Positions 691-34,223 of a stretch of 64,000 bases of DNA are shown here, piece after piece. The notes under the pieces are model-generated. The model did no database searches and was not told the origin of the DNA. It saw only the letters and a list, made by a program, of their open reading frames with translations. The stretch lies in the NCBI GenBank assembly GCA_032622095.1, contig CP136069.1, forward strand, positions 68,843,319 through 68,907,318. The letters are read 5' to 3'. Numbering within the stretch: position 1 is the stretch's first letter; each line of letters starts with the position of its first letter. The position numbers were made by a program, and so were the translations under genes. The DNA comes from Siphonodentalium dalli. Its lineage: Eukaryota > Mollusca > Scaphopoda > Gadilida > Siphonodentaliidae.

Positions 691-1191
691 TTCTGTCTGA
701 AGAAATAACATTCGAACACACGAGCACCACACCAGCCAACATCGACACGGCATCCACCATCGTCACCGCAGCAACAACAACCGACGGCACAACCCCGACA
801 TCTGCCAGCACCGATCCAGAAACCACCATCACCACACCGATAACGACCAGCACCACACGGGCAACCACCAGCACCACCCCGGTAACCAGCACCGATCCCA
901 CAACCACCACGACGACCGCCAGCACCGAATCGGCAACCACCAGCACAACCCCGACACCCACAACCGATACCATCGTAACCACCAGCACCACCCTTGTAAC
1001 CACCGGCACCACTCCGGTAACCAACAGCACCACCCCGGAAAACTCAACTGATAACTCGGCGACCACCAGCACCACCCCGATAACCACCAGCACCACACAG
1101 GGAACCACAGCCGAAACCACAACCACCAATAAGCAAAGCAATTACGGGTGTGAACACAACGCCAGTGCTAGTACTATGGACGGAAATTCAG
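691..1191 (+). CDS. Mucin-like Thr/Pro-rich exon I (phase 1-1 internal exon)
   Basis: This open stretch encodes about 167 residues dominated by Thr, Ser and Pro, with TTSTTP-like units. Such tracts are usually densely O-glycosylated stalks of secreted or membrane mucins. I place the 5' boundary at the acceptor TTTGACAG ending at 690 and the 3' boundary at the donor TTCAG|GTATAT at 1191/1192. Both junctions fall after codon position 1, so the exon is symmetrical and can be duplicated or skipped without changing frame. It begins LSEEIT and ends with NYGC followed by DGNSG; exon II at 20047-20745 has matching ends (LTEAIT; NNGC; SGNTG). NST and NAS sequons are present. An ATG at 663 would give a 178-residue ORF, but I see no signal peptide, and the conserved splice-like ends argue for an internal exon. 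The Val-rich reverse-strand ORF is its shadow. Confidence 0.6.
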
Positions 1192-1283
1192 GTATATAAT
1201 AATCGTTGAATTGTTGAAGCTACACCATTTGGGTTCCAAGGCTAAATATGGCTCCTCCTAAGAGAGTTTTTGAGTAATATATC
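1192..1283. other. Start of putative intron after exon I
   Basis: The GTATAT donor is followed by AT-rich sequence with nothing recognisable before the LINE remnant. If exon I splices to exon II, the intron is about 18.9 kb. Confidence 0.4.
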
Positions 1284-1876
1284 ATGTGTAGTCAAACATA
1301 CAATTTTCGACTTTTATCCTCCATCTGCTCGTCTCCAACACAAGCTGATGATATGACACTGTTGTCCCTCTCAAGTTACGGCTTACAACATATATGCGAT
1401 ATATGCACATCGTATAGTAAAAAGTGGCGCTTCGTGTATAATTCAAACAAATGTAAGGTCATCGTTTTTTAACGAAACGTCTCGCCAGAGTTGCAGCACA
1501 AGTAGGCGTCATTTTGGGCATACAAGTAAATAAGTACAGCTTTGTCAAAGAATTTGTTGAAGTCATTGTAGACAAAATCAGGTCAACGTTTTTCCTCTTA
1601 ATTAATGCTGGACTTTATGCCGGAGGGATCACTCCGTCGAGTTGCGCAACTATATACAAAACGATGGTGCTGCCAAAAGGATTATGTGGATCAGAATTTC
1701 AGTGTGGCATGTCTGTGTCAGACACTACTTCGCTCGAGAAAATCCATCGATTTTGCTTGAAACGCATTCAAGGGTTGTCTGTAAGGACGAGAACCGATAT
1801 TGTCATAGGTCTCATGGGTCTAGGCCCTATTTCCTCTTCTATAGATGCACTAAAACTCAGTTTGTCTGCATGGTAG
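1284..1876 (+). pseudogene. Decayed LINE reverse transcriptase, C-terminal part
   Basis: Fragments in different frames read as the end of a non-LTR retrotransposon. First comes an ADD catalytic-box remnant (QADDMTLLS) followed by YSKKWRFVYNSNKCKVIVF, the usual region after the RT palm. Further on are LPKGLCGSEFQCGMS and SLEKIHRFCLKRIQGL then RTRTDI, typical of the post-RT tail of LINEs common in molluscs. Stops and frameshifts separate the blocks (for example after 1470), and no endonuclease or RT N-terminus is present. It is a dead, 5'-truncated copy. Confidence 0.75.
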
Positions 1877-2004
1877 CCAAACTACACCTTTTAGCGGACT
1901 CGGCCTCCGGGTCGCGCAGTTCGACTTTTAAATCCGTCCCAAAAATTCCCATTTCTATAAATAAAACCCCCAGCGCAAACTCCAGCGCCCAGGCGAAACA
2001 ATAA

Positions 2005-2625
2005 TTTCCCGGGTTGGCAAAGTGCCTGGGCACTAACTTATCAATTTATCGCACCCGAAAAAGTCCATAACAAGTCCATAATATGTCTTTAAGCATATAT
2101 ATAAACTACGAAAACAAAAATTCTAAAGCATTAAACGATTTCTTGAAATTAAGTTTTTCTGAACAGTCTTCCTTGATTAAAGTGATGTGAAACACTCCGG
2201 CAGACAACGGGCAGAGTGATCAAATAGAAATTAAGAATAATCTTTCTGAAAGTAGTTATTTGTTACGAATATTAATCCAAATGGATGATACACAACGTCA
2301 TTATTATATATTAGTTAAATGCAATGACTCTCGATGGCGAAATCATTTTTGTTTAATTATAGCCGATAGTTGCGCCCCGAATCGAGATGTAAATATTTAC
2401 AATTTGGAGTAGTTCAGACGATGTTCTCTATGAAGTGGTGTGGTAGACATTTTTTGAAATTTTCAGTGATGTTAGTAGAATGATAACATTCCCCAGGTTG
2501 GCAAAGTGCCTGAGCACTAACTTATCAATTTCTCGCACCCGAAAAAGTCCATAACAAGTCCATAATATGTCTTTTAAGCATATATATAATCTCCGAAAAC
2601 TAAAATTCTAAAGCATTAAACGATT
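2005..2625. repeat. Dispersed repeat flanked by ~137-bp direct repeats
   Basis: The blocks 2005-2141 and 2489-2625 are nearly identical (GGTTGGCAAAGTGCCTG through TAAAGCATTAAACGATTT) and flank about 350 bp. The central part, beginning AGTGATGTGAAACACTCCGG at 2181, recurs in diverged form at 49583-49860 and 57263-57636. The third copy also carries part of the right flanking block. The layout resembles a small terminal-direct-repeat element or a partial tandem duplication. No ORF is present. Confidence 0.75.
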
Positions 2626-4849
2626 TGCTATATTTCCAGGGCATATATTTCATCTGATATTGCGAGAATCCATATATACTTTTTCACGAGAATCCAGGGT
2701 TATTTGCGAGAATATTTACGAGAATCTAGATTTGGATTCTCGCCGAAATATAAGCCCTGATTTCACTCTGAAGTGTACCCAAATGGCATAAATTGTACCG
2801 TGGTTCCCTTGTTCGCCAAAGTGGCATAAATTTATTTCAGGATAATACTAATTTTAGGCATTCATTTATATCACTGATATCAGGACAATAAATAGCCATT
2901 TCCATTGCATGGAACAGAAAAGAGCGTTATTGTTTATCGGTGTTGTTTTTGGAAGTGGTTGTAGTTCAATTTTATACGTTTCGACCCTCAATAAGTATTT
3001 CCGAACAAATGAATTATTAACAAGCGTGACATGACATCATTGACGAAGATAATTAAGTACGTACCAGTAGCCAAATACCTTAAGGTAAATGACAGTCTTT
3101 CGGCTGCTATTATCTGATTAATATTGATAATCTCATGTTGGTATCCTGCTTCTCTATTAGCCACCATGGAAAGAAGCAGAGCAAACATATCAGGTTTTAA
3201 AGTACACTGAGTTGCAGAACTGCCAGAACTTGGCAGAACTTCCAGAAGGCAAAAAACTAATCAGAGACAACGCATGCAACAATAATGGCGATATCTGCTT
3301 GATTTAGCCACCCATAAACACTTTTAAATATTGCATATCCTCGCGGTGAGGTTTACATTGCATTAGCAAAATAAATTATATTTTTCCTCCAATAAAATTG
3401 CCATTTTAGTTATGTTTTGTATCGCAAACGATGAATCTTCTAATTTTCATGGTAGCTGCCATTTGTATTGGGTCACGTGATCACCAAACGAGATCAGGGG
3501 AGATAATCAAAAAGTTACGGATAACCAGTAGATCCGCCCAACGCGTAGTAGTATTATTATTAGTACAAGAACAAAGGATCATTGAAATCTGCGATTATAC
3601 AAATCAACTTCGCAGGTGCGGTGGATATTTGCAGAACTGATCTTACCATCGTGTTATCAACACAAAATTGACTATTATTGATCAAATAACATCCCCATCA
3701 TAAATTAAATAAATGAAACAAAAATTTCTCTGCCTGGACTAATAAAAAAAATGGCGACATCTTCATGGAATTCTATCATTTCTGCGCATGCGCAAGAAAC
3801 TTCCAAATAAGGAGTTGCCATATAAGGAAACTGCAATTTCAATAATTACCAAGCAATTAAATTCTTAAAATGAGCTAAAATTTAACATTTTCTTTAAAAA
3901 ATTTACATTTTTATCTCTCGCGACATAATTATCACCAATAAAATCAAATTTGATTCATCGTGGAAGTTTGTCGGTGACTATAAATAATGTCACCATTCAA
4001 CTGAATGTTGTTGAGCATATTTCAACCAAATTTGGAAGTTTAAATGAATATTTTCTTCACACGCAAAGTCAAATTGACAAATTTCAGGATTTTAGCCTGC
4101 TTTGTTGGGACCAAAATTTGTTGTGTACACCCAAGGAACGTCTATAATGCCATGACCATGCTATAAACTAGCTTGAAATTGGCAAAACAATGAATTTTTT
4201 TTGGTTGAAAAAATTTACATGGGAATCTTCATAGAGAACGATTATTTTTCGATAAAAACGAAAATAATGCGAAATGAAAGTCGGCACTCGTCAGAATGGT
4301 GCAGAATAACATACGAGTCTTGTTATAAGCGAAAATTTGACCTCATTCGATAAATTAGTCTCTTAGTTAAGGAATCAATGGCGCTCGGACATGTGGAATT
4401 CCGTCGCAGACTGTACATGGCAGACGCAATTGTAAACACGCATCAAACACGCATCAAATTTACCTTTTGTGAGAATAACAAAAGCGCAACCTTGATCAAA
4501 TTAATACAATACACAACAACACATAGAATAAAACTGATATAAACACGGTATAAGTGAGAATAAGACGCGAATTTAGACGTGGAATTTGACAACATTTCTT
4601 CGCTTCGTTAGCAGAACCGACGCTATAAATATATCTGCTCAAGGCGATCAAGATTACCGAGATGCAGCTATCTGATTTGAAACAAATACCAAGCAATAAT
4701 CTTAACATAAAGTCAGAAATTTATTGTTTCATGATCGAACTGCGGACCTGATAATTATCGAAATATGTAGGCGAAATAATTTTTAATTAGTTAATCACAT
4801 GATATAGACATCAACACACTCTTAAAGACGCAATACACGGGTGTACCTA
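2626..4849. other. No gene recognised
   Basis: AT-rich sequence. Open frames at 2988-3188, 3431-3640, 3950-4147 and 4496-4708 are short, have no recognisable motif and look like chance. An AAAGAGCGTT decamer lies at 2919-2928. Confidence 0.6.
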
Positions 4850-7078
4850 AAACGCTGAATCAGCAGCTGATCAGCAGGTTATCACCTAAAACGCTGATCA
4901 GCAGATTTACCGATGTTAGTTTAACTCAAATATAACGCCGATGGCGGGCTGTAGGTTGTACAAATGGCACGTAATATATGTGTTATATACCAATATAAGA
5001 AGGGGACACATTTGGACCGCCCGCTATGTCCGTTCAGCAGTTCAAAATCCCGTTCAGCAGTTCATATCGAGCAGATCAGCAGATTATCACCTAAAACGCT
5101 GATCTGCAGATTTCCCGAGTTTAGTTTAACTCAAATATAACGACGATGGTGGGTTTTGGGTTGTGTAAATGACACGTAATACATGTATTATATGCTAATA
5201 CAGGAAGGGGACACATTTTCACCGCCCACCATGCCCGTTCAGCAGTTCAAAATCCCGTTCAGCAGTACGGCAGCTGCAGTTCAGCAGATTATCGCGAACG
5301 CAGTTTAACTCAATTGTAACGAAGTTAGTTGAGTTTAGGTGGTGTAAATGACTTCTAATTAATGGGACATAACCAGGTACATGGAGAAAGCCATTTGGCC
5401 GACGTTCACTCCAGTTCAGCAGTTCAAAATCCCGTTCAACAGTTCATATCTATAGGTTCAGCAGATTCACCGAAGGCGGTTTAACCGATTTTTAACGAGG
5501 ATAGTCGGGTAAGTGTTGTGCAAATGACATTTTATCGATGGTGCATAAAGACATACAGGAAGAAAACACGATTTGGCCGACATACACCCCAGTTCAGCAG
5601 TTCAAAATCCCGTTCAGCACTCTATTTGGGGCAGTTCAGCATAATTTCCAAAACTCAGTTTAACTGATTTTTAACAAATATATTCCGGTATAGGTGATGC
5701 AAATGGCATTTTATCGATGGCTCATAACCAGGTACATGAAGAAAAAAACCATTTGGCCGACGTCCACCCCAGATCAGCAGTTCAAAATCCCGTTCAGCAG
5801 TTCATTTCGAGCCGTTCAGCAGATTCCCCGAACGCAGTTTAACCGATTTTTAACGAGGATGGTCGGGTATTTGTTGTGCAAATGACATTGTATCGATGGT
5901 CCATAACGAAATACAGTAAGAACACACGATTTGGCCGACATACACCCCAGTTCAGCAGTTCAAAATTCCGTTCAGCACTTTATTTGGGGCAGATCAGCAG
6001 AATCTCCAAAACTCAGTTTAACTGATTTTTAACAAAGATATTCTTGTATAGGTAATGCAAATGACATTTTATCGATGGCTCATAACCAGGTTCATGGATA
6101 GAAAACCATTTGGCCGACGTCCACCCCAGATCAGCAGTTCAAAATCCCGTTCAGCAGTTCATATCGAGCCGTTCAGCAGATTCCCCGAACGCAGTTTAAC
6201 CGATTTTTAACGAGGATGGTCGGGTATTTGTTGTGCAAATGACATTGTATCGATGATCCATAACGAAATACAGTAAGAACACACGATTTGGCCGACATAC
6301 ACCCCAGTTCAGCAGTTCAAAATTCCGTTCAGCACTTTATTTGGGGCAGATCAGCAGAATCTCCAAAACTCAGTTTAACTGATTTTTAACAAAGATATTA
6401 TGGTATAGGTGATGCAAATGACATTTTATCGATGGCTCATAACCAGGTTCATGGATAGAAAACCATTTGGCCGACGTCCACCCCAGATCAGCAGTTCAAA
6501 ATCCCGTTCAGCAGTTCATATCGAGCCGTTCAGCAGATTCCCCGAACGCAGTTTAACCGATTTTTAACGAGGATGGTCGGGTATTTGTTGTGCAAATGAC
6601 ATTGTATCGATGGTCCATAACGAAATACAGTAAGAACACACGATTTGGCCGACATACACCCCAGTTCAGCAGTTCAAAATTCCGTTCAGCACTTTATTTG
6701 GGGCAGATCAGCAGAATCTCCAAAACTCAGTTTAACTGATTTTTAACAAAGATATTCTTAGTAGGTGATGCAAATGACATTTTATCGATGGCTCATAACC
6801 AGGTTCATGGATAGAAAACCATTTGGCCGACATCCACCCCAGATCAGCCGTTCAAAATCCCGTTCAGCACTTTTCCGGGAACAATTCAGCAGATTCCCCG
6901 AACGCAGTTTAACCTATTTTTAACGAGGATAGTCGGGTATATAATCTGCAAATGATTTGTTATCGATGGGACATAAGGAAATACAGGAATAAAACACGAT
7001 TTGACCGACTGCACCCCAGTTCAGCAGTTCAGCAGTTCAGAATCCCATTCAGCACTTTATTTGGGCAATTCAGCAGAT
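4850..7078. repeat. 178-bp satellite with A/B dimer (357-bp) higher-order structure
   Basis: Tandem monomers are marked by CAAATGACATTxTATCGATGG. Markers fall at 4971, 5166, 5345, 5521, 5700, 5879, 6058, 6236, 6415, 6593, 6771 and 6949, with 178-179 bp spacing through the middle. From 5345 two monomer types alternate strictly. Type A (GGCTCATAACCAGG, then GATCAGCAG) is at 5345, 5700, 6058, 6415 and 6771. Type B (GTCCATAACGAAATACAG, then GTTCAGCAG) is at 5521, 5879, 6236, 6593 and 6949. Central dimers are nearly identical while both ends are diverged, the usual outcome of unequal exchange. Each monomer contains repeated TTCAGCAG octamers and a TTTTTAAC box. The first two units form a third, older subtype. 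Confidence 0.93.
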
Positions 7079-7835
7079 GGAACATAGGGGGATAGAGGGG
7101 GACAATGAGCAAGAAACAAATGTATGGAAATTTGTACCTGACCAGGGGATTGTCATTGGATGGGCGTCTTTGGCATCGTCTGATATATAAGATCAATAAA
7201 GAGCGTTTAATATAAGCCAAGACGATATGTTAAAAAATTTGAGCACAAAAGTAAAATGATACGGAGGGGTGTTCGATATGTGTAAACATATTTTATTCTC
7301 TAAATCATGCACATGAATTAACAAGCTAATGGTACAAGTATAACATAAAGACAATTTTATTAGAGAATGGGATTTGGCAGAAAGCATGATGCTTATATCA
7401 GCCATGTCCCCATCTTTAGCATTCACAGGTGGTGTCTTTATTGATTATTCATAATGTTCTTTTCCCAGTTAGATTTTGCTTTCATGTTCAATGTTTCTAT
7501 CTTATTGGCTTTGTCAGCCATCTGGGGCATAGACTGTCAAACAGTAACTCATCATGAGTCACTGCTGGGCAGTCCATGCATCAGATGACCGGAATTGTTA
7601 CATGTATGTGACCTGACCCCAGACCTCACCCCATCATTTTCTAATAATCGTAGCTCAAAGTTCAAGTTTCGAAATCAAAACGACAAGAGAGTTGTGTCTT
7701 ATAGTATTACGAGCAAAATATAATACATGTATACTGAAATATATGATATTTTTCCACTTTTCTAAGTTATACTGTATAATTGGTAACTTCGAAGTCTAGT
7801 TTTCACACGTTCACGTTGTTTCATAGAGGCAGAAT
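7079..7835. other. No gene recognised between satellite and LINE
   Basis: Nothing coding is apparent. A decamer AAAGAGCGTT lies at 7198-7207. The region includes the presumed 3' end of the neighbouring minus-strand LINE. Confidence 0.5.
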
Positions 7836-10000
7836 GTTTTATTTATTTATAAAGTTTATTTATAAAGTTAGCGACTTAGGAAAAGTTCAATTTGGAAATC
7901 GTTTAGATAAAATTATGAATTTTTGGACCCTCATAAATAAATCTATATTCTCTTCCAATGATAGTTTGTGGCTTCCATGTAGCAAGGTTTTTACTCCTGG
8001 TCTTGTTATTAATCCCCCAAAACACCTATCTCTTTCAACCAAATATCTGCGACAATAAAAAAGAAAATGTTCTGATGTTTCTTTGGCACCACAAATACAC
8101 AACGGACTATCTCTCAGATGGTTGCTGAAAAGATCATAGTTTAAATTACTGCATTCCAGTCTTAATCGGCAATGGTATATTTGATTTGCTCTCGTATATG
8201 CATATTCCAAGTATCTAGGACGCTCTTTGAGGTCACTATTCAAAAATGTTTTGAAGTCTGAGAGTGTTTCACATTTCCTCACTTCTGGTTTTAACTCGTT
8301 CCAAAGATTGATTGTGTGTGGAAGAAATGATTTCTGATAAGTAACTGAGTTGCAGAAAGGTACTCTAAGATCATCTGATCTCGTGTCATATCCACTAGTA
8401 CTCGATATTGTATTCGGAACAGCATTGTATAGATAAGGGGGAGTGAGTTTTTTCGTAATTTTAAAAAAGAGCATGAGTTTAGTATTTACTCTCCGTTTTG
8501 ATAATTTTTCCCACCCAACTTCTTGAAGAACTGTGCATTTATTACAACTTCTTGTTCCACCGGTTACTATTCTAGCGGCTTCGTACTGAATATCTTCTAG
8601 TGAATCGGCTTCTTCGCCTGTACAATTGTCCCATACCGAGGAAGCATATTCCAAGACGGGACGAATATAGGACAAGTAAATTCTTTCTAGAGTTCTTCTA
8701 TCAAGGATAAATTTATACTTCCTCAGTATGTACAATCTTTTGGACGCTCGGTTTTCAATATCTTCTATATGGTCTTTCCATTTACCCTGTCGGTTGAATG
8801 TCAGACCCAAATGTTTATGTGAGTCTACCTCATTTATTCTCTCGTTTGACATGTTTAGTACTGGTTGGTCAATAGGTATTTGTTTCCACGAAACAAGCAC
8901 GGATTCTGTTTTCAATGGGTTGAATTTAACTGCCCAGGTCTTTGACCAGTTGAATATTTTGTGTATAGGTCTGAATTGATCAAATCTGCAGCAATTGTGG
9001 GATCTTCTATAGCAATATAAAGTGATGTATCATCCGCAAATAATCTTATATTACATGTAATTCCCTCGACTATGTCGTTTATATACACGAGAAATAGGAG
9101 AGGGCAGATTATTGATCCTTGAGGCACTCCTGTTGTAACGTCTTTCCATGGCGAATTAAAGTTAGAAATTGTTACTCTTTGTTGTCTACAATCAAGATAG
9201 TTTTCAAGTAGTTTTAAAAGCTTCCCAGTTATCCCCATTCTTTTAAGTTTAAAGAGGAGACCCCTGTGCCAAACCTTATCGAACGCCTTGCTTATATCGC
9301 AGAATACACCCCTTATTTCCCTCCCATCGTCAAGGGCTGAGATAATATAATGGTAAATATCGATCAATTGGAATACTGTGCTATCGTTCGTTGTAAATCC
9401 CGACTGTAGGTCGGTTAAAAGCTTATTTGTTCGTAGGTATTTTGATATATGATAGAATAGACATTTCTCGAAGACCTTAGACAGACAACTGAGTAAGGAT
9501 ATTGGTCGATAATTGGATGGATCGCTGGGATCTCCATTTTTGAAAATTGGGCATACGTTTGCCTTTTTCCATTCTGAAGGAAAATACGACCGTTCAATGA
9601 AAACCCTGAAAGAGAATGCTAGTGGTTTAGCTAGTGATATCGTACAATTTTTTAATACTTTGGGACTAATACCATCGTATCCGGCCGCTTTCGATGTCTT
9701 GGTTGAGTTTAAACTTGCGAGTACACGTTCATCAGATATTTCAATGTCGCTCAGGCGCTTATCCATTAACCAATCAAAGATGGGTAACTCTAACTTATCT
9801 TCATCAGGTAAGGAGGAGATTTTACAAAAATAGTTATTTAATAAGTCTGCCTTTTCTTCATTTTCGGTTATTATAATCTGGTCAGTTTTTAGGGCTGGTA
9901 TTGGTTTAGGTTCGGGTTTCATGAGGTGGTTTAATGTTTTCGATATGTGAGGTTGAATCAAATTATTTGAAGAGACACTAGTAATCAGCACCAAAAAACA
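7836..10000 (-). mobile_element. 5'-truncated LINE (CR1/Jockey-type), one frameshift
   Basis: Read on the minus strand this is a non-LTR retrotransposon RT ORF. The N-terminal segment (about 8980-10000) has SKAAGYDGISPKVLK, FKNGDPSDPSNYRPISLL, DISKAFDKVWHRGLL, TGVPQGSIICPLLFLVYIND and the catalytic FADDTSLYI. The C-terminal segment (7887-8915) has SHKHLGLTF, SYIRPVLEYAS and a late CICG...H...C cluster, ending in SKRFPN and a stop. The two lie in different frames; at about 8990 one lost base moves the frame between the INSDL codons and the WAVKFNPLKTES block. The endonuclease domain is missing, as expected of 5' truncation during target-primed insertion. The AT-rich TTTATAAATAAA stretch near 7850 is probably the 3' tail. 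The copy cannot be autonomous but is far younger than the other LINE remnants here. Confidence 0.9.
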
Positions 10001-10036
10001 TTTATTGTAACTTGTAATATATATCTGCTTAAACAA

Positions 10037-10489
10037 AAGTAATCACCCTGTCGCCAACACCATGAACGCCAACTATTGAGATGTGTTAATTGTCACCACT
10101 AGCTTTGGGAAGATGAAAGCACTCTCAATGTTATTTATTTAAAATGAGGTGACAACAATTGTTGGGTTAAAACCTGTAGGTTATGAAGCCAGTGTCACAG
10201 TGGATCAACGGACACGGACCAAAACCGAAAGTCGTAGATTTCGAGGTGGAGAAAAAAAAGTCCACAAATATTTGTTGACATTTTTCAACGTGTTTTTTGG
10301 AATATAAACGGTTGGATATAATTTCTGACCAACTGAAGGTGAGTGAATAGTTCTTCACTAATGTTCGGGCAGCGCCATCGCTTCAGTTTGCCAGTGGTCT
10401 CTAAAATGGCAGATACGGTTCAATTCGTCAATACAATAACCAGAGAAAGCAATATATAATGACAGATACACCGGAAGCACCTAATATAC
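10037..10489. other. No gene recognised between LINE remnants
   Basis: No motif-bearing frame or clear repeat was found here. Confidence 0.5.
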
Positions 10490-11960: not shown

Positions 11961-11964
11961 AGTT

Positions 11965-20046: not shown

Positions 20047-20745
20047 TCCTGACTGAAGCAATTACATCAGAAGATACCAGCATCACAACCGCCATCACCA
20101 ACCCGGCATCCACCAGCACCGACTCGGTAACCCCCAGCACCGACCCGACAACCATCAGCACATACCCGACAACCGCCAGCGCCACCCCGGCCTCTACCAG
20201 CACCGACCCGGCAACCATCAGCACTTACCCGACAACCGCCACTGACAACACAACCCCAACTTCCGCCAGCACCGATCCGACAACTACCAGCACCATCCCG
20301 ACAACCACAACCGCCACCCCGATAACCACTAGCACCGACCCGGTAACCACCAGCACCGACCCGACAACCGCCAGCACCGACCCGGCAACCGCCATAACGA
20401 GCCCGGTAACCACCAGCACCGCCGCGGTAATTACCAGCACCGATCCGGCAACCACCAACAACGACCCGGTAACCACAACCGCCACCCCGATAACCACTAG
20501 CACCGACCCGGTAACAACCAACAACGACCCGGCAACCATCAGCACCACCGACCCGGCAACCGCGACAACCATCAGTATTACCCCTACAACCACCAGCAGT
20601 GCCTCGACAACCACCAGTACCACCCCGGTAACCACGACCGACACCCCGACAACCACCAGCACCACCCCCATAATCGCCAATCCGACAACCACCATAAATC
20701 CAAACAACGGGTGTAGCAATTACCCACCAATGAGCGGAAATACAG
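20047..20745 (+). CDS. Mucin-like Thr/Pro-rich exon II (phase 1-1 internal exon)
   Basis: About 233 codons of ST-DP-TTT-type repeats, open throughout but without a start codon. The acceptor ATACTTTACAG ends at 20046 and the donor TACAG|GTATAC lies at 20745/20746. Both junctions are phase 1, as in exon I. The conserved beginning LTEAIT and end NNGC...MSGNTG match exon I, so the two are paralogous exons about 19 kb apart. The core repeat (STDPVTT / STDPTTA) is richer in Asp and Ala than that of exon I. It would supply an O-glycosylated stalk. Reverse-strand ORFs of 357 and 164 codons over this stretch are low-complexity shadows (GGCRVGAGG and VVVG patterns). Confidence 0.62.
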
Positions 20746-22049: not shown

Positions 22050-24475
22050 ACTAATGTAACCCCTGTCTTCAAGAGTGGTGATCATAGTGTCATATCTAAC
22101 TACCGCCCAATCTCACTATTGAGCTGCGTATCAAAAACATACGAAAAGTGCATATATAAATACCTCTCGTCGTATCTTGACAAACGCAATTTGCTTTCTA
22201 TTTACCAATCTGGGTTCACTAAAGGTGATTCTGTCGTATACCAACTTGTTGATGTATATGATTATATTAGCTTGATTTATTGATTTATTGTTCCACCAAT
22301 AACACATGGTATATGACAGGTCGCAGATCGCTCGATGAAGGTAAGGATGTGCGTTGTATCTTTTGTGACATCAATAAGGCTTTTGATAAAGTGTGGCATA
22401 AGGGGCTTCTACATAAACTCTCGAAAATGGGTATCAATGGCAAGGCATATAACTTGATTAAATCATATTTACAATCCAGACAACAGAGAGTCCTAATTGA
22501 TAATGCTAGCTCCGATTGGCATGCTGTTTCAGCAGGCGTACCACATGGATATATCTTAGGTCCACTCCTATTTCTTGTATACATTAATGATATAACTGAA
22601 AATATTATATGTAATATACGACTTTTTGCAGACGATACTTCAATATATTATGTTTTGAAAATCCAACGTTAGCTGCAGAAATCATGAACAATGACATTCA
22701 AACTATTGTGAACTGGTCAAAAATATGTGGTTAGTAAAATTTAATCCTTTAAAAACGGAAGCGTTAATAGTATCAAGGATGAATTCTGCTATTGTTCACC
22801 CACCATTAATTATGGCGGCATCGCAAGTTACAGAGGTAAGTTCTCATAAACATCTAGGTGTCTCTTTCGATAACAACGGATCCTGGGAAACTCATATACA
22901 AACGATAACCGAAAAGGCATGGAAAAGAGGAAATCATATTCGGAGACATAAATTCCGACTGAGCAAGAGAACACTTGAAAAATCATATTTATCATATGTA
23001 AGGCCGATACTCGAATATGCGTCACCTGTTTGGAATAATATACCAATTTATAAGAGTGACAAAATTGAAGATATTCAATATGAGATGGCGAGGATTGTTA
23101 CTGGGGCTACCATAAGTGTCAGTGATAAAAACTTATTACTTGAAACTGGTTGGGAAACCCTTTCATCCAGGAGACATACTCAACAAATGATATTATTTTA
23201 CAAGATGCATAGAAATCAGGCCCCATCTTATCTTTCAACCATGATTCCACCCGATTCGACATCTTCTGGATATAATCACAGACGCGTAAGTATTCACCCT
23301 CCAAATAGTAACAGAAATAAATATATGGATACGTTCTTACCGTCAGCATTACGCGCATGGAACAATATACCTGTATCAATAAAAGCATCATCAACCGTGG
23401 AAGAATTCAAGCGTCTTCTGAAGGTCGGTCATACTAATTTAGCTAAGTTTTATTATCATAGTCACTCTCGTAGAGGCCAAGTATATCACACAAGAATGAG
23501 ACTGGGGTGCAGCCATCTGAACAAAGATCTTGTTGTAAATTACGTAAGAGATTCCCCATTTTGCTCTTGTGGAGAATTTGTAGTTGAATCCGCGTACCAC
23601 TTTCTTTTGCAATGTCCCCAATATAGTCAAATTAGAGCTGATATGATAGCCGCTCTACCATTTTCGCGAGCAGATGTGAACATTGATGTCCTATTATATG
23701 GGTCTAATGAGATGTCCGATGAAACAAATTCTATAATATTTGAAGCTGTACAACTGTTTATTATCCAAAGTCGACGTTTCGATAATGTGTGAGCTCCGTG
23801 CGCAGGGGGTCGTGTATGTGAACATGAGGTGCATAACTTGTATGTATAAATATGTAAGTCGCGTTTCTGCACATTGTGTTCGGGCATATCCGCCTGTCTG
23901 CCCACGGAGTTACTACTGATTGTACTTACATGTACTAATTGTATCTAGATTATATTGATACGCACTACAAGTATAACAATTATCCTAATATATACTTATT
24001 TTCATGCATCATCTCTCCTGGGTGCCGAGACGTATTTGGGGTCTAATTCCGTTTCTATATTGGACAATACACCATGATTTAACGCCATAATGTGACATTT
24101 AGATAATGACTTAGGGATTATTGTATACAGCATTTATCACACTTCTTTTCCACCTACTTTATTATCTTTCTTGTCTATTTCATAATCTCCTCCCTTCTAT
24201 CACTCCTCCATCTTTCTGATCCCTGCACTCGCTTAACTAACTTCCCAACATTTATTTGAAAACACAGAACAATATTCAAATTCCCGTCCTCTTTACCCTG
24301 TAGCTGTCCGTATTGACACTCGGGGTAACATTTTTGGAGGAAAAGATTTTTATAAAAGCCATAGGCTCATGGCTTGTTATCTAATCCTCATTTGAACTAT
24401 GTTTTTTTTCTCAATATGTATAATTGTCAATGTGATGTTCTGTTCTTTTGTTCAAATAAATATTGTTTACACTAA
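22050..24475 (+). mobile_element. LINE (CR1/Jockey-type), frameshifted, nested in hAT
   Basis: The RT begins PVFKSGDHSVISNYRPISLLS (about 22055), runs through YQSGFTKGDSVVYQLVD, and resumes CIFCDINKAFDKVWHKGLL (22280-22672 frame), AGVPHGYILGPLLFLVYIND and FADDTSIYYV. A 50-60-bp insertion (about 22268-22332) and frameshifts near 22655 and 22725 break it. The C-terminal frame 22725-23792 has VKFNPLKTEALIVS, SHKHLGVSF, SYVRPILEYAS and a CSCGE...H...C cluster, ending SRRFDNV. The catalytic context VPHG replaces the usual VPQG. The 3' UTR contains TATAAAAGCCATAGGCTCA and ends near CAAATAAATATTG (about 24465). It is homologous to the LINE at 7836-10000 but clearly a different copy. Confidence 0.88.
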
Positions 24476-25015: not shown

Positions 25016-25318
25016 AAATACTGATCAGATGTCAATCAGTTGTATAATGTTCCCTTTGCACAGCCGCCACACGGAACGATATTTCATAAGTACGAAAATA
25101 ACGAAATACCGGTACTTTCGTCACCTAACTTCGTCTTGAATGTCGATCTATTGAGCGCTTTTATTAATTAGCTTTCTGACTCCATGATTTCCGTCTCCAT
25201 TTTGGGTCAAAAAAAGTTTAGCCAAAAGTTTAGCCAAATGAAATTTGTATTAGCCAAATTCGAAAAATATTAGCCATTGGCTAATTTGGCTACCGACAGG
25301 GTGAACACTGATATTACA

Positions 25319-25434
25319 TATTTACATATCTGATCATAACCCAGTTAGCCTAAGTTTTCAGTTCATTGATCATCCAAGAGGACGGTTTTTTTGGAAGTTC
25401 AATGATAGTCTCTTAAGAGACGCAGAATACATAA
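25319..25434 (+). pseudogene. L1-like LINE fragment, end of endonuclease
   Basis: Reads SDHNPVSLSFQF, then RGRFFWKFNDSLLRDAEYI. The SDH motif of the endonuclease and FWKFNxSLL of L1/Tx1 proteins are recognisable. It continues directly from the fragment on the other side of the hAT-like element. Confidence 0.8.
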
Positions 25435-26311: not shown

Positions 26312-26585
26312 GTAAAGATAGTGAAAGAAACCATAACTCAAGCTATAAATCAATATTCTCGCTAGAATGATCACTCCCTCAACATTAATGAACAACTATT
26401 TTGGGAAACACTTAAAATCATGATCCGTGGTGAATCAATTAAATACTCATCAAAGCTTAAGAAATCTAGGGATAAACGGGAAGCTAATCTCGAAAAGCGA
26501 CTCTCAGAGTTGTCTTTAACACTAGACGGAGGGAATAACGCGGTTGAAATAGAGATAGATAAACTTAATGCTGAAATTAATGGCG
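26312..26585 (+). pseudogene. L1-like LINE fragment, endonuclease-RT linker
   Basis: Reads EQLFWETLKIMIRGESIKYSS, then KKSRDKREANLEKRL, a charged coiled-coil-like stretch typical of the L1/Tx1 linker. Similarity stops near 26585, where inserted sequence begins. Confidence 0.75.
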
Positions 26586-27659
26586 CGTCCACATGCAGCT
26601 GCAAGAAAATATCTGCAAGAAAATATCAGGTACAATTGTACCCTGATATTTTCTTGCAACAAAGATTACGACCGTGAGAACACGGCGGTTTAGATGGCGT
26701 TGATTGAGCTCAATCAGAACAGTATTAGTCGTGCTGGTTCAAGTGAATTGCGTCCGGTAAACAACCTATAGTCTATATTGGCAATTTATGAAATTTCCAG
26801 CTGTTGACACGTATTTCTATAATCGGGTGGGGTGAGGCACACACCGACCTGCAGCCACGTTGCTACTCTCATGCATAAATACATTCTATATAATGAGAAA
26901 GTGGTCACGTTATTTGTAAATAGGTACACGCCTATGTTAGAATTTCATAGTACATGCATATGTGGGATGACAAAAGTTTTTAAGGTTTTGTGGCAAATCG
27001 GATAACACCCACTGCCATTGAGACCCCATATGAAGTTTTCTAGAGTTGTGGATTTGGCTTGGTTCGTGGGGCTGTGGTTATATTACGTTACCAAACATAC
27101 AGGGGTACATGTGTGGACATGGGACCCCCACCCAACTATGTTTAATGTTTAAACAGTTTTCATCAGTTGGAAATATCAAACCTGACACAACATTAGTAGG
27201 AATTTTAACACCAACTATGGGTTGAAATTGTTATGGTAGTCTCAGTTTCCAACCATTAATGTATGTGGAATTTGTTGTTTTAGACCATTTGCATTTCTTC
27301 CTACTTTTAGCCAAAATATTGGTTTGAAATTTTCTCTGGGCCCCTCCCTGGTGTCCAGTCAAAATTCAAGTTAATAAACAAGGCATGTGGGGTACCAGGT
27401 GGGAAATTCAAAGCCGATGGGAAGGGTGCAAATTGAATTATGAGATCTTGGGAGTTTTGCCTGGTTCAAGGGCGGTTGCAATTTCCGTCAACGGAAACCC
27501 TCTATAGATACTCCCCTATAAACGTATCCATATAATACTTCAGCGATTCTGTCAATTCATCCAAATGGAATTACGAAGTCAGTTGTTGAAACAGGCGATA
27601 ATATTGATGGATCATAACTCGGTGTGCGTGAACAGTAACCAGCCTATCCCTTAGAGATT
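26586..27659. other. Inserted sequence within the LINE, unassigned
   Basis: Begins with a near-perfect hairpin: TGCAAGAAAATATCAGG (26609-26632) against CCTGATATTTTCTTGCA (26641-26658), after a partial duplicate of its left arm. The remainder to the SINE has no recognised gene or repeat. Confidence 0.5.
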
Positions 27660-27964
27660 GATTGATTGATTGGGGTTTATTGTCGCTTTAGCCACTAAGG
27701 CCATATCACGACATTGCCAGTTTTAGTGGTGGAGGAAATCCGCACACTTGCGACTAATCTAACAGTGATTTCAATGGCTGATAAACTCGTCAACCATGTG
27801 CGGCAAACCACCGGCCATCGACGAGTAACTGGTAACTCCACCAGATAACGATTTCGAGTTACAAAGTCCACGATGGAAACATGTGGATTTGAACCCTAAT
27901 CGCCAGCGCTGGAGGGCGAAACGGCTTGGAGTTGTACCCCTAACCGATTGAGCCACCGAGGCCC
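27660..27964 (-). mobile_element. tRNA-derived SINE (family A), full length
   Basis: On the minus strand it starts GGGGCCTCGGTGGCTCAATC, which contains a pol III A box (TGGCTCAATCGG), followed by a B box (GGTTCAAATCC). It ends in an (ATCA)n-type tail. A 17-bp duplication, CCTATCCCTTAGAGATT, flanks it at 27643-27659 and 27965-27981. The long TSD indicates LINE-mediated insertion. Relatives lie at 41458-41672 and 44271-44507. Confidence 0.95.
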
Positions 27965-27981
27965 CCTATCCCTTAGAGATT

Positions 27982-28339
27982 ATTTAACGGATACCGATGA
28001 CCACCAATCAAGGTGAGCACAGGCGATAATATACCAGTGCACTGCCTCCATCGGGTATTTTCCTGTATTATGTTTTTATTGGTCAAGTAAGTCACACGGG
28101 CCATACCTGACATTTTCTTGCCCGTCATGTGATCTATCAGAGATCAAAAAGTGAAAGGAATTATGCTTTGAACAAAAGCTCAATGGAAAATCGAAGGGGG
28201 GGGGGGGGCCTTCAAAATAGTTTTTGAATTTGGAAAAGAGACATTGCACATAAAAACATATTCCAAAACTTATTAGATCAGATGGATCAGAAACAGACGA
28301 TTTTTTTCCGAAATTCACATAGAGCAGAAATCTTTATAC
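27982..28339. other. Unassigned insert continues; G13 tract
   Basis: No gene. A (G)13 run lies at 28196-28208. Confidence 0.5.
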
Positions 28340-28738
28340 ATCAAAAATAAAAAAAGAAACAGAACACAAAAAAAACCTTTGATTCCCGTGACATTGAAAA
28401 TCCATTCCTAAATACCCTAGATGATCAGGAATCAGAAAACTTAGATGGTCCATTATCCAACTTCGAATGTGCCTATGCATTAAAATGGACGAAAAACTAC
28501 CGCTCACCTGGAATCGATGATTACACTGCAAGCTTTTCTAAATATTTTTGGAAAGATCTTGGTCAATTTGTTATAAACACTCTTAATTATGTGTATTATG
28601 TTTGGATTTGGGAATAAAAATATGTTTACACTAATTATGGTTAATCCAACCGAGACCTGTCAATCACTCAACCATGTGGAGTAATCACCATTATTCCAAA
28701 GCCAAACAAATGTAAACAATATACGAAAAAGTTCTCTT
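28340..28738 (+). pseudogene. L1-like LINE fragment, RT N-terminal part
   Basis: Reads DDQESENLDGPLSNFE, YALKWTKNYRSPGIDDYT and FSKYFWKDLGQFV, then, after frameshifts, GVITIIPKPNK. These correspond to the SPGxDGxxxEFxKxFW and IxxIPK blocks of L1/Tx1 RT. Sequence beyond KQYTKK is lost or displaced by the following insert. Confidence 0.8.
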
Positions 28739-30082
28739 CTGGGGTCAATACTATGAACAATTTTATACCTGTAAATACAAATTGTATTTATTAATTTGTA
28801 ATTACAAATTTGTGTTAACTATCACAGTGGTTTCATAGTACAGGGGAAATTTAGCCGTATTATTGTAATACCTTAGACTGGTCGAGAGGTGAAACCCCTA
28901 AAACGCAGCTGTAAAACTTATAAAAAACTAACTCACTACTCTGCTCCCATGCACCTGTTATCAGTGTTATCTGAATACCAGTTCAAATTAGACGGACATG
29001 TATATAGAGCTGAAATAACTGACAACAATTTATATGGGGAAGTTACAATGCGTGCTATCATATTGTGATTAGTGATAACGCCGGTACTATGAAACGATGA
29101 GCTAACAAAATCTCGCAAATTTCACAAAGATCTACTGTTGATTATTGTAGATTGCTTACGGGCAAACCTTTCCCCGTGAGTGATTCACAATATATTGAAT
29201 CACGGCAAGCCAAAGTTACAAAAGAAATAACCAATCATAAGTTGAGAGGTGATATCTTATCAGAGCTATCCAATCGGTTCACGGGTTGCTAAGTTGATGA
29301 CCACTTGTCTGCGCAAAGTTAACAAATAAACTGTTCGTTTGTAGTGTGTGTATGTAAGTACAAGTCAGTGTAATAACGAGTACTACAACCAATTTGGTAT
29401 CATTGTTTTTACAAATTACAAATTTACAACCATTCGGTTTGTGAAAACAAAATATTATTTTGATGGTTTAGCATTATATATATTGTGACCATGCTATGAT
29501 TTCAAACTGATCCGCTACTCTTATCATAACATATCGAGGCAGTAACGTGGCTCCATTTGTATCAGGGGGGTGTATCGAAGCAGGGACGTGCTAATTGTGT
29601 CGGTTATAGGAGTGGTGGGGGGCCCCCGGTGGTCCAGTCGGTAGAGTGCCAGGTGAATTACATCGTCACAGGCCGTCCAGCGCTGACGAAGCTGGTGGGA
29701 ACCCCGTCATAGGGAGGGTGACCGCAATCGTGTATCTGGGCAAGTTTGTCAGTTGCTTTCCGGGGGTCGGTGGTTTCTACACGCAGTGGGACGATTTCTC
29801 GATGAAATCAAGCATCTGCGTGGTCTTTCCTCCACCTGTAAAATTGACAACGTCGTGTGTGGTCTAGCGGCTAGAACGACGATAAACCCTAATAAACCAA
29901 ACCGAACCAATAGGAGTGGTGGTCATTTTATAATTTCAAACTGCTCCGATATCTTATAATATATCTAGATAGGGACGTGGCTATATGGGCTCAGTTTGGC
30001 GATGGGGTGTCCATCCTATAATTTCCATATGCATCCTTTGAATAAAAAAATGCGATACGAAAATACACAATTTTGAATCATG
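28739..30082. other. Insert within the LINE RT domain
   Basis: About 1.3 kb replaces roughly 100 codons of RT. It contains an inverted pair GGTTTCATAGTAC (about 28828) and GGTACTATGAAAC (about 29083) and a SINE at 29619-29909. No coding sequence is recognised. Confidence 0.5.
29619..29909 (+). mobile_element. tRNA-derived SINE (family B), full length
   Basis: Starts GGGGCCCCCGGTGGTCCAGT with an A box (TGGTCCAGTCGGTAGA) and a weaker B-box-like GTGGGAACCCC. The 3' end is TGGTCTAGCGGCTAGAACGA with an ATAAACC-type tail. A 13-bp duplication ATAGGAGTGGTGG flanks it at 29606-29618 and 29910-29922. Its body differs from family A. A fragment of the same 3' end occurs at 43105-43140. Confidence 0.93.
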
Positions 30083-30831
30083 TCAGGACGACACATAGGC
30101 GAGTCAACAAGACTATTCGATCTGATCGAAAAATGTTAGAAAAATTATATACCTGGAATACTAAATGATTTTAGATTTTGAAAATGCCTTTGATTCTCTT
30201 GAGTGTGGTCTTGAACAAAACTATATTGACTTTTTCAGTTTTGGCCCATCAATGAAAATATGGATAAAAACATTCTACACCAATATCAAAAGCTTATCAA
30301 ATAAAATAAATATTTTCAGAGGAGTTAGAGAAGGTGGCCAGTTGTATTCGTGTTTATTTATTTTGTGCGTAGTAATTCTTAGTACCTGGTTTAAAATCAA
30401 TCCTGACATGAAATGGATACAATTTAATAACTCTGAGTATACCTTGACTCAATATGCAGATGACCTAACCATCTTCCTCCAAGTTTATCAAAAAACTCCG
30501 AACACTGCATTAAATACTAGTAGCGCCTTTGAGGCCATTTCATGTCTAAAAGTGAACTTTGATAAAACACAAGCGGTATGGATTGGGGAAAAAAGGGGTT
30601 GTGGTGAAGAAATAAATACAGATAAAATGAAATCATAATCAGGCTTTCATGATACTTGGAAATGGATACAACCTATTCAATGAAAAGTTCATTGAAAATA
30701 ATTATAAAACAATGCTAAAGAAGATAGAAAACTTGCTGCATGACTGGTCCTTAGTTTATATGGCAAAACAACTGTTGTAAAGACACTTTTGTTTAGCTTT
30801 CTATGGTATGGGAAAACACAAAGTAAAGCAC
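30083..30831 (+). pseudogene. L1-like LINE fragment, RT palm
   Basis: Reads SGRHIGESTRLFDLIEKC, ILDFENAFDSLE (motif A), GVREGGQLYSCLFILCV (usually GVRQGCPLSPYLF) and TQYADDLTIFL (motif C, YADD intact), then LKVNFDKTQAVWIG. The 157-codon frame 30165-30638 covers the core. Later LFNEKFIENNYKTMLKKIE and WYGK appear in other frames. The TTAA MITE interrupts it at 30832. Confidence 0.88.
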
Positions 30832-30835
30832 TTAA

Positions 30836-31274
30836 AGGTACTCAATCAGAATTAACTTTCGCAAATTACTATTTCCTTGGCTTCGGGGGTAAAAAATATT
30901 GATTCGAGTCGAGGAACCCACCCATCAAAGCTAGGAGTGATCAGATATCGGTGTTTGAAATATATTAATTTAATTTTATGTGGCCCAGTAACCTGTCGAC
31001 GAGAAGAACTTATCTGACCAGATAGCGGATGAAGATCGATAACTCTAAAATCCAGTGGCTTTTTTTGTGTCAGATATATGACAACTGGCAAAATTTCGTT
31101 GAACAAAACGTTGATAAATAACAGGTTTTGGGCAATTTTATACTATAGTTGACCGTGGTTAGCATTATTTTTGGGCAATTAATCGATTCTGATATCTGAA
31201 GCGGCATTTCAAAAAATGTTGTTGTGTTGTTGGAATCTGATGATATGGGGATCGTCGAATCGGATTGAGTACCT
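30836..31274. mobile_element. 439-bp MITE with TTAA target duplication
   Basis: AGGTACTCAATC at the left and GATTGAGTACCT at the right are perfect TIRs flanked by TTAA at 30832-30835 and 31275-31278, as in piggyBac- or Kolobok-type insertion. The interior (GATCAGATATCG, GTCGACGAGAAG, TCAGATATATGACAA) matches the copy at 60474-60930 and the broken copy around 52110-53780. No coding capacity. Confidence 0.93.
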
Positions 31275-31278
31275 TTAA

Positions 31279-31483
31279 AATGACACGGATAAAAAACATA
31301 GATACTCAATTTGAAGCTAGATGGAAAGCATTATTAGTTGGTGAATTGGAACGATTTGGAGGTCGCAACGTGTGGAATATTCGCAGAGAAGGTCTCGAAG
31401 CAATAGGCAAAACTGTTAATCTATTTTGGAAAGATGTACTTCATGCATGGCCATTCCTTCGGCATAATAATTCAATGAAATAA
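31279..31483 (+). pseudogene. L1-like LINE C-terminal fragment
   Basis: Continues from the other side of the MITE: MTRIKNIDTQFEARWKALL, then LERFGGRNVWNI and LFWKDVLHAW, ending in a stop at 31481-31483. FWKDVLxxW is the usual C-terminal block of L1/Tx1 proteins. Confidence 0.78.
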
Positions 31484-33034
31484 AAATAATAAAATGTAGT
31501 GACAGGTTTGAAGTGACTTCGAATCTAACACAAAATTACATATAAAAAGCATCAAACTTTTAAAAATGATTTTACATAGTTAGATGTATATTCTTGAGAA
31601 GTTTCCCTTTACACTTTCTAAAGTATCATATACTGCTCAGCCGTATTAACTGTTAGCACGCATATCGGCATGTGGAGCCTGCGATCTTACAGGGGCAGAT
31701 TAAGTTGGGCGCCACAGAGACTCTGCTGACAAATCAATATCAACCGGGTCCCCAGTGAGACGTAGCTTATTCTTTACCCTGAGATTGCACGTGCAACACA
31801 TTCCAACCAAAATACATTGCCTTGTTGCTGCAGTTTGTAAATCCATGTTCATGTTTTTGATTCGAATAAAAATTATTAAAACAAAACAAACAAAAAACAA
31901 AACAGTCTGAAAATCATACATTAAAATCCTAATTGAAACTGACTAGCCTCTTTATTGGTGTCAGAACGTTTTACTGTTAATTGCATGTGTTTATTCATCA
32001 ACATCATCATCACAATCATCATCATCATCATCATCATTTATACAAATGATGAGTCTGACTGACTATTAGTCCCGGTTAGTATCAACATTACAAATTCGTC
32101 ACAATAATCTACATGTCAAGACTGGATATGCAGGGGGTATGCTGAGATATGCATATGTATGATTTGTTTTTGTAACATTGGATGCATATACTTATAATAG
32201 TGTGTATGTGCTCCTAGCCATTTTTCAATAAAATTCAATTCGAAAACAGCTTAAACTGTCAATTGAACTAAAGGAGATAATTTCACATTCATGTGAGTGA
32301 TATCAGTACATATTTATGCGGTTTTAGACCAACATTATTGAAATTTGGGGGTGGGTGTAAAAATAATGTTTCTATTTGTGTCGGTTTGGGAGTGGATGCA
32401 TGTTGATCCCCCGAAAACGCCACATAAAAAAACGGCATACCTTCATGCAAATGTGTTATTACCTCCCTCCCCCTTTCCTCACTGGTTGGATCACAAGCGT
32501 ATTGTTATTATCTGCTTTTGCTATAGCAAGCGAGTGATTTAATCTTATTCGAAATTTCCTCAAATAAATCATGTCATCCAATGACACTGTATTGATAGGA
32601 TAATATTATGGCTCAAGTAGATTCCTTCTTGAAAAGACGATAAGGTATCAGTTTGTTACTTCCGGACTTTGAGGAATCGTCACTTAAGCTGCTGTTTTTA
32701 CAATATATCCAGTAGTCTGACTAGTGACGATAAAGACGAAGAGAGTTTATAGTATTGCACATTGACTTTTTGGACCAGGTGATCCGCTGTTCAGTAACTG
32801 CATCTCGTACCTGCACTTAAAAGTTCACAGTCAGAGCGTGAAGAAACATTGATGGCATATTCCGACATTCCGTGTACAAATGGAAAGGGGAGAGCGGACT
32901 AATTCCTCGCACACAACATTATTTGGTGCATATTTTCCAACCACTGGTAACTTACTAATAATCATGAAATGTGAAATGTTTCACACGCAAGGCGATCGTG
33001 ATTTCTAAAAGCGATTTCGATCCCCCACAGTCCA
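31484..33034. other. No gene recognised; CAT microsatellite
   Basis: A (CATCAT)n stretch lies at about 32003-32036. The ORFs at 31700-31921 (-) and 32345-32542 (+) have no motif. Confidence 0.5.
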
Positions 33035-33440
33035 TTACAATAAATGTGTATTGGTTTTACCAATGTATCGAAAAGTTTGAGAGGTTTTCAAAGGCAGCGG
33101 TGATGTGTAGTTACACGAATTGACCAATGAGTAGATTGATGCCAACACTTTGGCACTTAAATTGTATAGCCTTATAAGTAATTTAATATAAATGCCGAAG
33201 GTGATACCCAAATACTTATATTCCATTACATTTTCAATGTTTTTATCACCAATGTGGAGGCGTTTTGTTGTTGTTGTTTTTTGTATCGTTCTGAATATCA
33301 AGCATTTTGTTGTTTTCGGCATTGACAGTGAGATGATTCATATCGGTGCACAGCTGGAGTTTATTCAAACAGTTTTGCAGTCCCGTGGTATAAGTGCTTA
33401 CATAGATTTTGATATATGTGGGGACAATATATAGCATTGA
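33035..33440 (-). pseudogene. LINE remnant, post-RT region
   Basis: Two minus-strand frames overlap: one reads GLQNCLNKLQLCTDMNHLTV and AENNK, the other KTTKCLIFRTIQK and MEYKYLGITF. Together they correspond to the segment after the RT catalytic box (KCxxxxF...YKYLGI) of a CR1/Jockey-type LINE. A frameshift separates them near 33310 and the rest is missing. Confidence 0.7.
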
Positions 33441-33594
33441 CTAACACCAATAGTTCACAAAGCAGCTGGACACCAATCATCTTTGCGTTTCGTAACGTAA
33501 CTGCTTGAGGAATGCTTAATGGAGTATGTTTTAATGTTTAGCCACCCACCTCCATTCTTCTGGTTTATCGCAGATATACTTTTAATTTCCACAG

Positions 33595-34223
33595 ATTGTC
33601 AGACCTTGTTTGAAGCTGGTAACGTGATTAGTGGGATGTACAACATTTACCTGGACGGCACTCCGATATGTGTCTTCTGCGACCAGGAAACATCGGGTGG
33701 TGGTTGGACCGTCATTCAACAACGTCACAGCGGAAATGTAGATTTCTACCGGAACTGGGCCGACTACGTCAGTGGATTCGGCGACAAGACGGTTGATGGC
33801 GATTTCTGGCTTGGTCTACAGTGGATCTATCTACTCACAGTTAACACACCGAGCGAGGTGTACATAAAGCTGAAAACAGTAGCTGGGACCGATTATTTTG
33901 CTAGATACTCCTCTTTTGGTATCGACGATGAATCCGCAAAGTTCAGGCTTAGTGTAAGCGGCTACTCGGGGAATGCTGGGAATTCGCTGATGAATGACAA
34001 TGGGAAGATGTTCTCCACAAAGGATGCTGACAACGACAATCAAGCTACTAAGGATTGTGCCAACGATTGGCTTGGCGGATGGTGGTATTACAAATGCGGT
34101 CCAGTCAACATCAACGGGCAGTATCAGAATACAGCTGCAGGCACTCTGGCAGGAATGCGCTGGCACCTCGACCTTCAATTAAATTCGATGATGAAAACTG
34201 CTGTCCTCATCCGCAGAAAGTGA
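33595..34223 (+). CDS. Fibrinogen-related domain (FReD), terminal exon
   Basis: About 209 residues form a near-complete fibrinogen C-terminal domain, a secreted lectin-type fold that binds acetylated sugars or microbial surfaces in invertebrates. It starts DCQTLFEAG, then GMYNIYLDG, CDQETSGGGWTVIQQR, VDFYRNWADYVSGFGD and GDFWLGLQWI. The calcium site is KDADNDN, followed by DCANDWLGGWWYYKCGPVN and INGQY, and it ends MMKTAVLIRRK with a stop. The extra cysteine in CVFC is unusual. I place the start at the acceptor TTAATTTCCACAG (ending 33594), giving a phase-1 junction with the Asp codon split. An in-frame ATG at 33519 would put intron sequence in the protein. The phase fits the donor of mucin exon II. 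I see no AATAAA soon after the stop. Confidence 0.9.

Follow-up and report, generated by a model that had tools for sequence, protein, structure and literature searches.

Predicted PAN-mucin-FReD genes in tandem in the scaphopod Siphonodentalium dalli

Organization of the locus

The window analysed here, 64,000 nucleotides of contig CP136069.1 (C9:68843319-68907318) from the genome of Siphonodentalium dalli (GenBank:GCA_032622095.1; 2.23 Gb, 9 contigs), contains three exons of a modelled gene, designated gene B, predicted to encode a protein with a mucin-like stalk and a terminal FReD (fibrinogen C-terminal domain). Low coordinates (e.g. 691-34223) are positions in the window, and those preceded by C9: or C8: refer to the whole contig. 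The locus data set comprised 154 kb around the window and included a tandem paralogue, gene A; on the plus strand the order was exon 1 A, mucin A, FReD A, exon 1 B, mucin B1, mucin B2 and FReD B (Table 1). The original prediction had placed two Thr/Pro-rich exons and a FReD exon in this order on one strand, and their coordinates and Thr/Pro content were confirmed. All junctions were of phase 1, as had also been proposed, with GT-AG sites; the acceptors end in ACAG, each mucin exon closes with AG, its final G standing alone before GTAT, and this G together with the FReD exon start, ATTGT, gives the Asp-Cys that had been claimed.

The modelled gene B protein has 686 amino acids in the order leader-PAN-mucin-mucin-FReD, or 519 if B1 is skipped, and that of gene A, with a single mucin exon, has 396. 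Both proteins terminate a few residues past the FReD and were seen by eye to be without a membrane segment. After the leader, the cysteines of gene B are distributed as four in the PAN part, one per mucin exon and five in the FReD.

Table 1. Exons and associated elements of genes A, B and C
Feature	Position	Strand	Description
Gene B, whole	C9:68819896-68877541	+	4 exons, about 57.6 kb, modelled
Gene B, exon 1	C9:68819896-68820127	+	leader and PAN_1; donor G/GTGAGT, phase 1; upstream of the window
Gene B, mucin exon B1	691-1191	+	501 bp, phase 1-1, Thr 42%, one Cys
Gene B, mucin exon B2	20047-20745	+	699 bp, phase 1-1, Thr 39%, Pro 12%, one Cys
Gene B, FReD exon (terminal)	33595-34223	+	fibrinogen C-terminal domain and stop codon; PF00147
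Gene A, exon 1	C9:68772338-68772569	+	leader and PAN_1, phase-1 donor
Gene A, mucin exon	C9:68792275-68792604	+	330 bp, phase 1-1
Gene A, FReD exon	C9:68813250-68813878	+	FReD, 85% identical to FReD B
Perfect inverted repeat	arms 564-612, 614-662		49-bp arms, 1 nt between, 28 bases before B1
Gene C locus	C8:28775809-28792689		leader and PAN_1 exon, then stalk-FReD exon

The first exon

In a DNA search, B2 also matched an exon lying 71 kb farther upstream, the third of the mucin type; this exon, mucin A, precedes FReD A by 20.6 kb. Units A and B were compared in translation (low-complexity sequence masked, plus frames, minimum of 26 bits and 45% identity, the 60 best matches), and the single strong match besides FReD and its other frames was a stretch of 84 residues with 92% identity, which in gene A lies 5′ of the mucin exon and in gene B precedes mucin B1 by 23.9 kb. 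Other frames of FReD and exon 1 excepted, the remaining matches (up to 57 bits) fell in the 5′ flank of this exon 1, at the starts of the mucin exons and in repeat-like or intron DNA, many of them with stops; the comparison gave no further strong coding match between the units and, besides FReD, none downstream of the mucin exons. Exon 1 of gene B begins with a hydrophobic leader, MWSTHILLCVLQVSVSVG, which was called a signal peptide by eye, and it belongs with the PAN/Apple domains, matching PAN_1 (PF00024) at 26.8 bits (cut-off 21.4) over profile positions 13-57 of 76 only. In both genes the exon ends in a lone G, in phase 1, before GTGAGT or GTAAGT, so that the signal-peptide exon which the original prediction would place upstream on the contig was found at the 5′ side of both genes with a matching donor. 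The two copies differ at 13 of 231 bases (2, 1 and 10 at the three codon positions; ratio of nonsynonymous to synonymous divergence, dN/dS, about 0.10). Because exon 1 was found only twice in the 154 kb, with one copy between FReD A and FReD B and 5′ of both mucin exons, B1 and B2 appear to share one first exon. A scan for signal-peptide exons by hydrophobicity plus donor gave no candidate in A, and in B three and one unrelated ones.

For the surroundings of related exons, a Thr-rich frame was defined as an open frame of at least 50 amino acids with at least 20 Thr within some 50-residue stretch. The closest relatives of exon 1 were at C7:90.16M and C8:131.99M, and neither FReD nor Thr-rich frame was found in 20 kb and 10 kb downstream of them, respectively; the next FReD among the matches listed lies 91 kb from the C7 relative, and the 20 kb before that FReD held neither a further FReD nor a Thr-rich frame. 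By eye, four of the best 15 exon 1 matches have a listed FReD within 60 kb downstream on the same strand. Upstream of FReD relatives at C3:23.76M (30 kb), C5:69.35M (20 kb) and C5:72.44M (20 kb), neither a Thr-rich frame nor a PAN exon match was found.

The FReD exon

FReD B is a clear member of its family (PF00147, 185.4 bits against a cut-off of 22, E = 1.7e-54), and its best match in PDB was ficolin-1 (E = 3.8e-45); the alignment includes a D-x-D stretch, which we take to be the Ca site. FReD A and FReD B each have, close to their start, an extra Cys (C-V-x-C), absent from five other FReDs examined, which could possibly form an interchain disulfide. The two FReDs are closest to each other (Table 1), the next closest among the matches listed having 53% identity. 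Their differences are distributed 20/15/24 over the codon positions, with dN 0.081, dS 0.181 and dN/dS 0.44 by NG86, and dN 0.092, dS 0.128 and dN/dS 0.71 by YN00. The FReD repertoire of the genome is very large: a first look gave 677 candidates, and all 150 that were scored exceeded the cut-off, with clusters on C2, C3, C4, C6 and C7 among others.

The mucin exons

B1 and B2 encode 167 and 233 amino acids, and Thr, Ser and Pro together make up 62% of B1, 64% of B2 and 56% of mucin A. With such long Thr/Ser/Pro-rich stretches and repeats spaced mostly 21 bases apart, these exons have the character of a mucin-like (Pro/Thr/Ser-rich) region; no Pfam family was matched in a scan of the Thr-rich exons. 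The VWD, C8 and TIL domains of gel-forming mucins were not matched in the modelled exons of gene B, and no Gly-X-Y run as in ficolins was seen by eye in the Thr/Ser/Pro-rich stalk. DNA searches showed B1, B2 and mucin A to be paralogous, and in all three copies the acceptor, the donor and the phase-1 lone G are retained, the ends are non-repetitive and hold one Cys, and the length is a multiple of 3.

Of the further DNA matches to the mucin-exon part, inspected by eye, none came closer than 100 kb to any FReD among the matches listed. Matches at C6:31.72M and C5:201.82M were rejected on inspection as low-complexity and intron-flank similarity, and those to query bases 1-192 represent a dispersed repeat in the intron flank, one of which (C8:25132080), 2 kb from a FReD, was left uncounted. 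A genome-wide protein search with B2 gave other Thr-rich places and missed B1 and mucin A, and it was excluded from the counts.

A related locus on C8

Among five FReDs with long open frames examined, one (C8:28791659-28792689; Pfam 178 bits) is preceded, in an uninterrupted frame, by a 127-residue stalk containing 82 Thr (65%). The third bases of its ACN codons (A28, C13, G20, T21) are as would be expected if threonine itself was kept. At a distance of 15.5 kb upstream of the stalk exon there is a leader and PAN_1 exon (29.5 bits), whose phase-1 donor follows a lone G, and we designate the whole gene C. It resembles genes A and B in having a leader and PAN_1 exon, a Thr-rich stalk and a FReD, and its lone stalk Cys precedes the first FReD Cys by 15 residues, as compared with 15 in A and 12 in B; it differs from them in that stalk and FReD share one exon, the stalk is almost devoid of Pro and the PAN part is only weakly similar. 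Joining of the PAN exon to the FReD exon, as suggested by adjacency and phase, is only probable, because the PAN exon has 24 more near-full-length matches (51-61% identity; C6:27.9-31.4M, C5:146M and others), none of which by eye lies within 100 kb of a FReD among the matches listed.

Of 118 listed FReD matches, only that at C8:28.79M covers the stalk in full length without stops. Those at C7:208.86M, 209.35M and 209.55M extend far into DNA that resembles the Thr-rich stalk; they carry 6, 10 and 11 stops and were not retained. At C7:34.07M and C2:53.59M the FReD match extends 27-28 residues into the Thr-rich stalk query without a stop, and these may be short stalks.

Coding potential and alternative explanations

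Thr-rich frames are scarce in the DNA examined. In the 154-kb locus there were three, which are exactly the mucin exons, all on the plus strand and each between a PAN and a FReD exon. None was present in 127.7 kb from seven other loci, 20 kb of C7, two further stretches (10 kb and 8 kb) and five short pieces (5.4 kb), a control total of 171 kb; C8:28.77-28.79M (21.2 kb), counted apart, had one, the stalk-FReD exon. The other Ser/Thr/Pro-rich frames listed had at most 10 Thr in their best stretch. Because Thr-rich frames are thus confined, within the DNA counted, to the locus and the C8 stalk exon, the set of mucin exons exceeds what chance would give. In DNA-guided alignments of the mucin copies, 14 of 16 gaps are multiples of 3, the remaining two being a 7+2 pair, and 321/321, 330/330 and 483/492 columns are in frame.

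Several observations weigh against a coding stalk joined to the FReD. The mucin copies are 67-70% identical, about as much as their intron flanks, and in the DNA-guided alignments their differences are spread almost evenly over the codon positions (36/42/33, 39/41/44 and 54/50/41), and purifying selection on the mucin exons is thus invisible at base level. Protein-guided alignments, which lean low, gave dN/dS of 0.48-0.63, and 64 of 167 single-step neighbours of ACC were synonymous, barely over the neutral third. In a neutral simulation with substitutions only (no indels), the probability that a copy stays open was 0.21-0.72, so that open frames would not be uncommon in DNA of this kind, and a 21-bp repeat unit by itself favours gaps in multiples of 3. 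Agreement in phase alone is weak evidence, because all five FReD relatives whose starts were examined begin in phase 1 and any phase-1 exon would fit. Constraint on the FReD, as estimated from the A and B copies, is moderate. At the stalk/FReD border of gene C, AG/ACTGC is retained, possibly an acceptor by which the stalk is skipped. In addition, two neighbouring pairs of PAN and FReD, taken as single genes from adjacency and strand, have no stalk: at C8:10259678-10267277, where the exons are about 7 kb apart, the whole interval is without a Thr-rich frame, and so is that at C4:218.93M, apart from about 390 bases beside the PAN exon that were outside the interval scanned. These two loci show that neighbouring PAN and FReD exons need not have the stalk between them, and the stalk therefore looks like an addition to a PAN-FReD backbone.

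The stalkless pairs, together with the weak base-level constraint and a frame that could be open by chance, would suit an explanation in which the Thr-rich DNA does not code for protein and consists of minisatellite-like repeats, with a unit of about 21 bp, lying within introns of a PAN-FReD gene of the ordinary type. We consider this improbable: splice sites, the phase-1 lone G, non-repetitive one-Cys ends and lengths divisible by 3 are kept in three copies, and at C8:28.79M a stalk is fused in frame to the FReD. The linkage of the exons is predicted from sequence, and the mucin exons might instead belong to a gene of their own, which would encode a secreted mucin and overlap that of the FReD; however, each of the three runs open, without a stop, up to its phase-1 donor, and FReD was the only strong coding match downstream of them in the comparison of A and B, which makes such an arrangement very improbable.

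The use of B1 is a different matter. The inverted repeat at 564-662 spans 29-127 bases upstream of B1, and the RNA of 555-720 folds with -83.5 kcal/mol (z = -16.4). By overlapping the usual branch-point zone, this 49-bp hairpin may hamper branch-point use at B1; its second arm is absent from the corresponding flanks of mucin A and B2. The upstream flanks of mucin A and B2 have a dispersed repeat in common, in matching position, and this fits B2 as the counterpart of mucin A, with B1 either an extra copy or one lost by A. Since a perfect hairpin adjoins its acceptor and gene A is modelled with one mucin exon, inclusion of B1 is less sure than the linkage of mucin and FReD, which is very likely. 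These features would agree with B1 being an exon that is duplicated, dying or conditional and is silenced by the hairpin, such that the usual product is leader-PAN-B2-FReD of 519 amino acids; skipping of B1 keeps the reading frame. Nevertheless, B1 is still open, its AG/GT sites are intact and its length is a multiple of 3, and 28 bases with a possible branch point are left between hairpin and exon, and we regard exclusive use of B2 as rather unlikely.

With good confidence, then, we interpret gene B as a four-exon gene, the downstream member of a tandem pair, for a secreted modular protein composed of signal peptide, a short PAN domain, mucin stalk (one or two symmetric exons) and FReD. The mucin-stalk-FReD gene of the original prediction is supported by a tandem paralogue of the same order, a phase-matched exon 1 and the in-frame stalk-FReD exon of C8; its stalk and FReD stand, and the architecture is changed in that the N-terminus additionally bears a PAN domain, encoded outside the window, and that B1 is possibly skipped.

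Other features of the window

Three reverse-transcriptase-type frames, 7887-10042 (-), 22271-23792 (+) and 30165-30638 (+), represent retroelement remains; two contain Pfam RVT_1, and that at 22271-23792 was recognized by resemblance of its translation. Positions 4865-7114 are taken up by a tandem array, whose periods are close to 178 and 357 bases. Downstream of the FReD, on the opposite strand, a 355-amino-acid open frame (39956-41023, -) contains NHL repeats (Pfam NHL, 57 bits).

Comparison with known proteins

Molluscan FReD proteins have been described with Ig (immunoglobulin), EGF or coiled-coil partners, and in Biomphalaria glabrata coiled-coil regions of up to 320 amino acids lie between the IgSF (immunoglobulin superfamily) and FBG domains (PMC7588048, available text). 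PAN/Apple and FReD are combined in one protein in FREP1/Bg179 of B. glabrata and some FReDs of Lottia gigantea, according to the same text; unlike gene B, FREP1/Bg179 also has an IgSF1 domain, and a mucin stalk goes unmentioned for these PAN-FReDs in the text available, the Lottia proteins being compared by description only. Like the gastropod FREPs, gene B has a terminal FReD and is probably secreted, whereas its N-terminus carries PAN and mucin instead of Ig: no Ig match was found in the four modelled exons, and an exon unique to B is possible. With ficolins it shares the FReD but has no collagen stalk and has one extra FReD Cys.

A different likeness is to the CAMPs (Conserved Anterior Mollusk Proteins) of Cornu aspersum mucus. 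As described in the available text of PMC10475054, CAMP1 and CAMP3 combine a Ser/Thr-rich N-terminal part with a fibrinogen-like C-terminus, as does gene B; O-glycans were found by mass spectrometry, with one glycopeptide each on CAMP1 and CAMP3, and CAMP2 and CAMP3 run below 40 kDa. The N-terminus of the CAMPs recurs in a VWA protein and in a lectin, and PAN is not named for it in that text, the comparison with gene B being by description only. Since such Ser/Thr-rich, fibrinogen-like proteins with O-glycans occur in snail mucus (PMC10475054, available text), the product of gene B, its modelled anatomy unchanged, might have a structural or adhesive role in mucus instead of one in immune recognition. 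We hold this role to be possible, a little short of evenly balanced; a very large FReD repertoire (at least 150 over the cut-off) is what would be expected of recognition molecules, although it is not decisive for one gene.

Among the best-ranked results in the open-licence full-text literature, no description of a PAN-mucin-FReD protein was found, nor was one present in the examined text of PMC12074976, PMC6321704, PMC9835746 and PMC11452194. The gene is very probably real, with PAN added to the proposed stalk and FReD, and it would represent a variant of known FReD proteins and not a new kind.

Predicted function and implications

Exons with their phases, domains and order can be read from the sequence, as can the conservation of exon 1 and FReD and the paralogy; for the product of gene B, we infer splicing, secretion, glycosylation, multimerisation, binding and biological role as follows. 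The stalk would be densely O-glycosylated and hence extended, and would hold the FReD as a recognition head away from the PAN end. By analogy with ficolins, the FReD may bind glycans or acetyl groups in a Ca-dependent manner, and the PAN end and the lone stalk cysteines may serve to anchor the protein, or to join it into multimers, in mucus or haemolymph. Stalk length can vary, since the frame stays intact whenever a mucin exon is gained or skipped; it is 110 amino acids in A and possibly 167, 233 or 400 in B. More tentatively, and with somewhat less than an even chance in our view, these genes may constitute an undescribed class of secreted PAN-mucin-FReD recognition proteins that has arisen at least twice in this genome (the C9 pair and C8:28.79M), with stalk length tuned through duplication or skipping of symmetric phase 1-1 exons as cassettes and, in gene B, a second cassette whose use is perhaps controlled by an RNA hairpin at its acceptor.

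If this interpretation is true, a mucin stalk between PAN and FReD would mean that a recognition domain is built straight into a scaffold compatible with mucus, and tuning of stalk length by exon cassettes within a large FReD repertoire would be a modest but concrete addition to the ways in which that repertoire is diversified.

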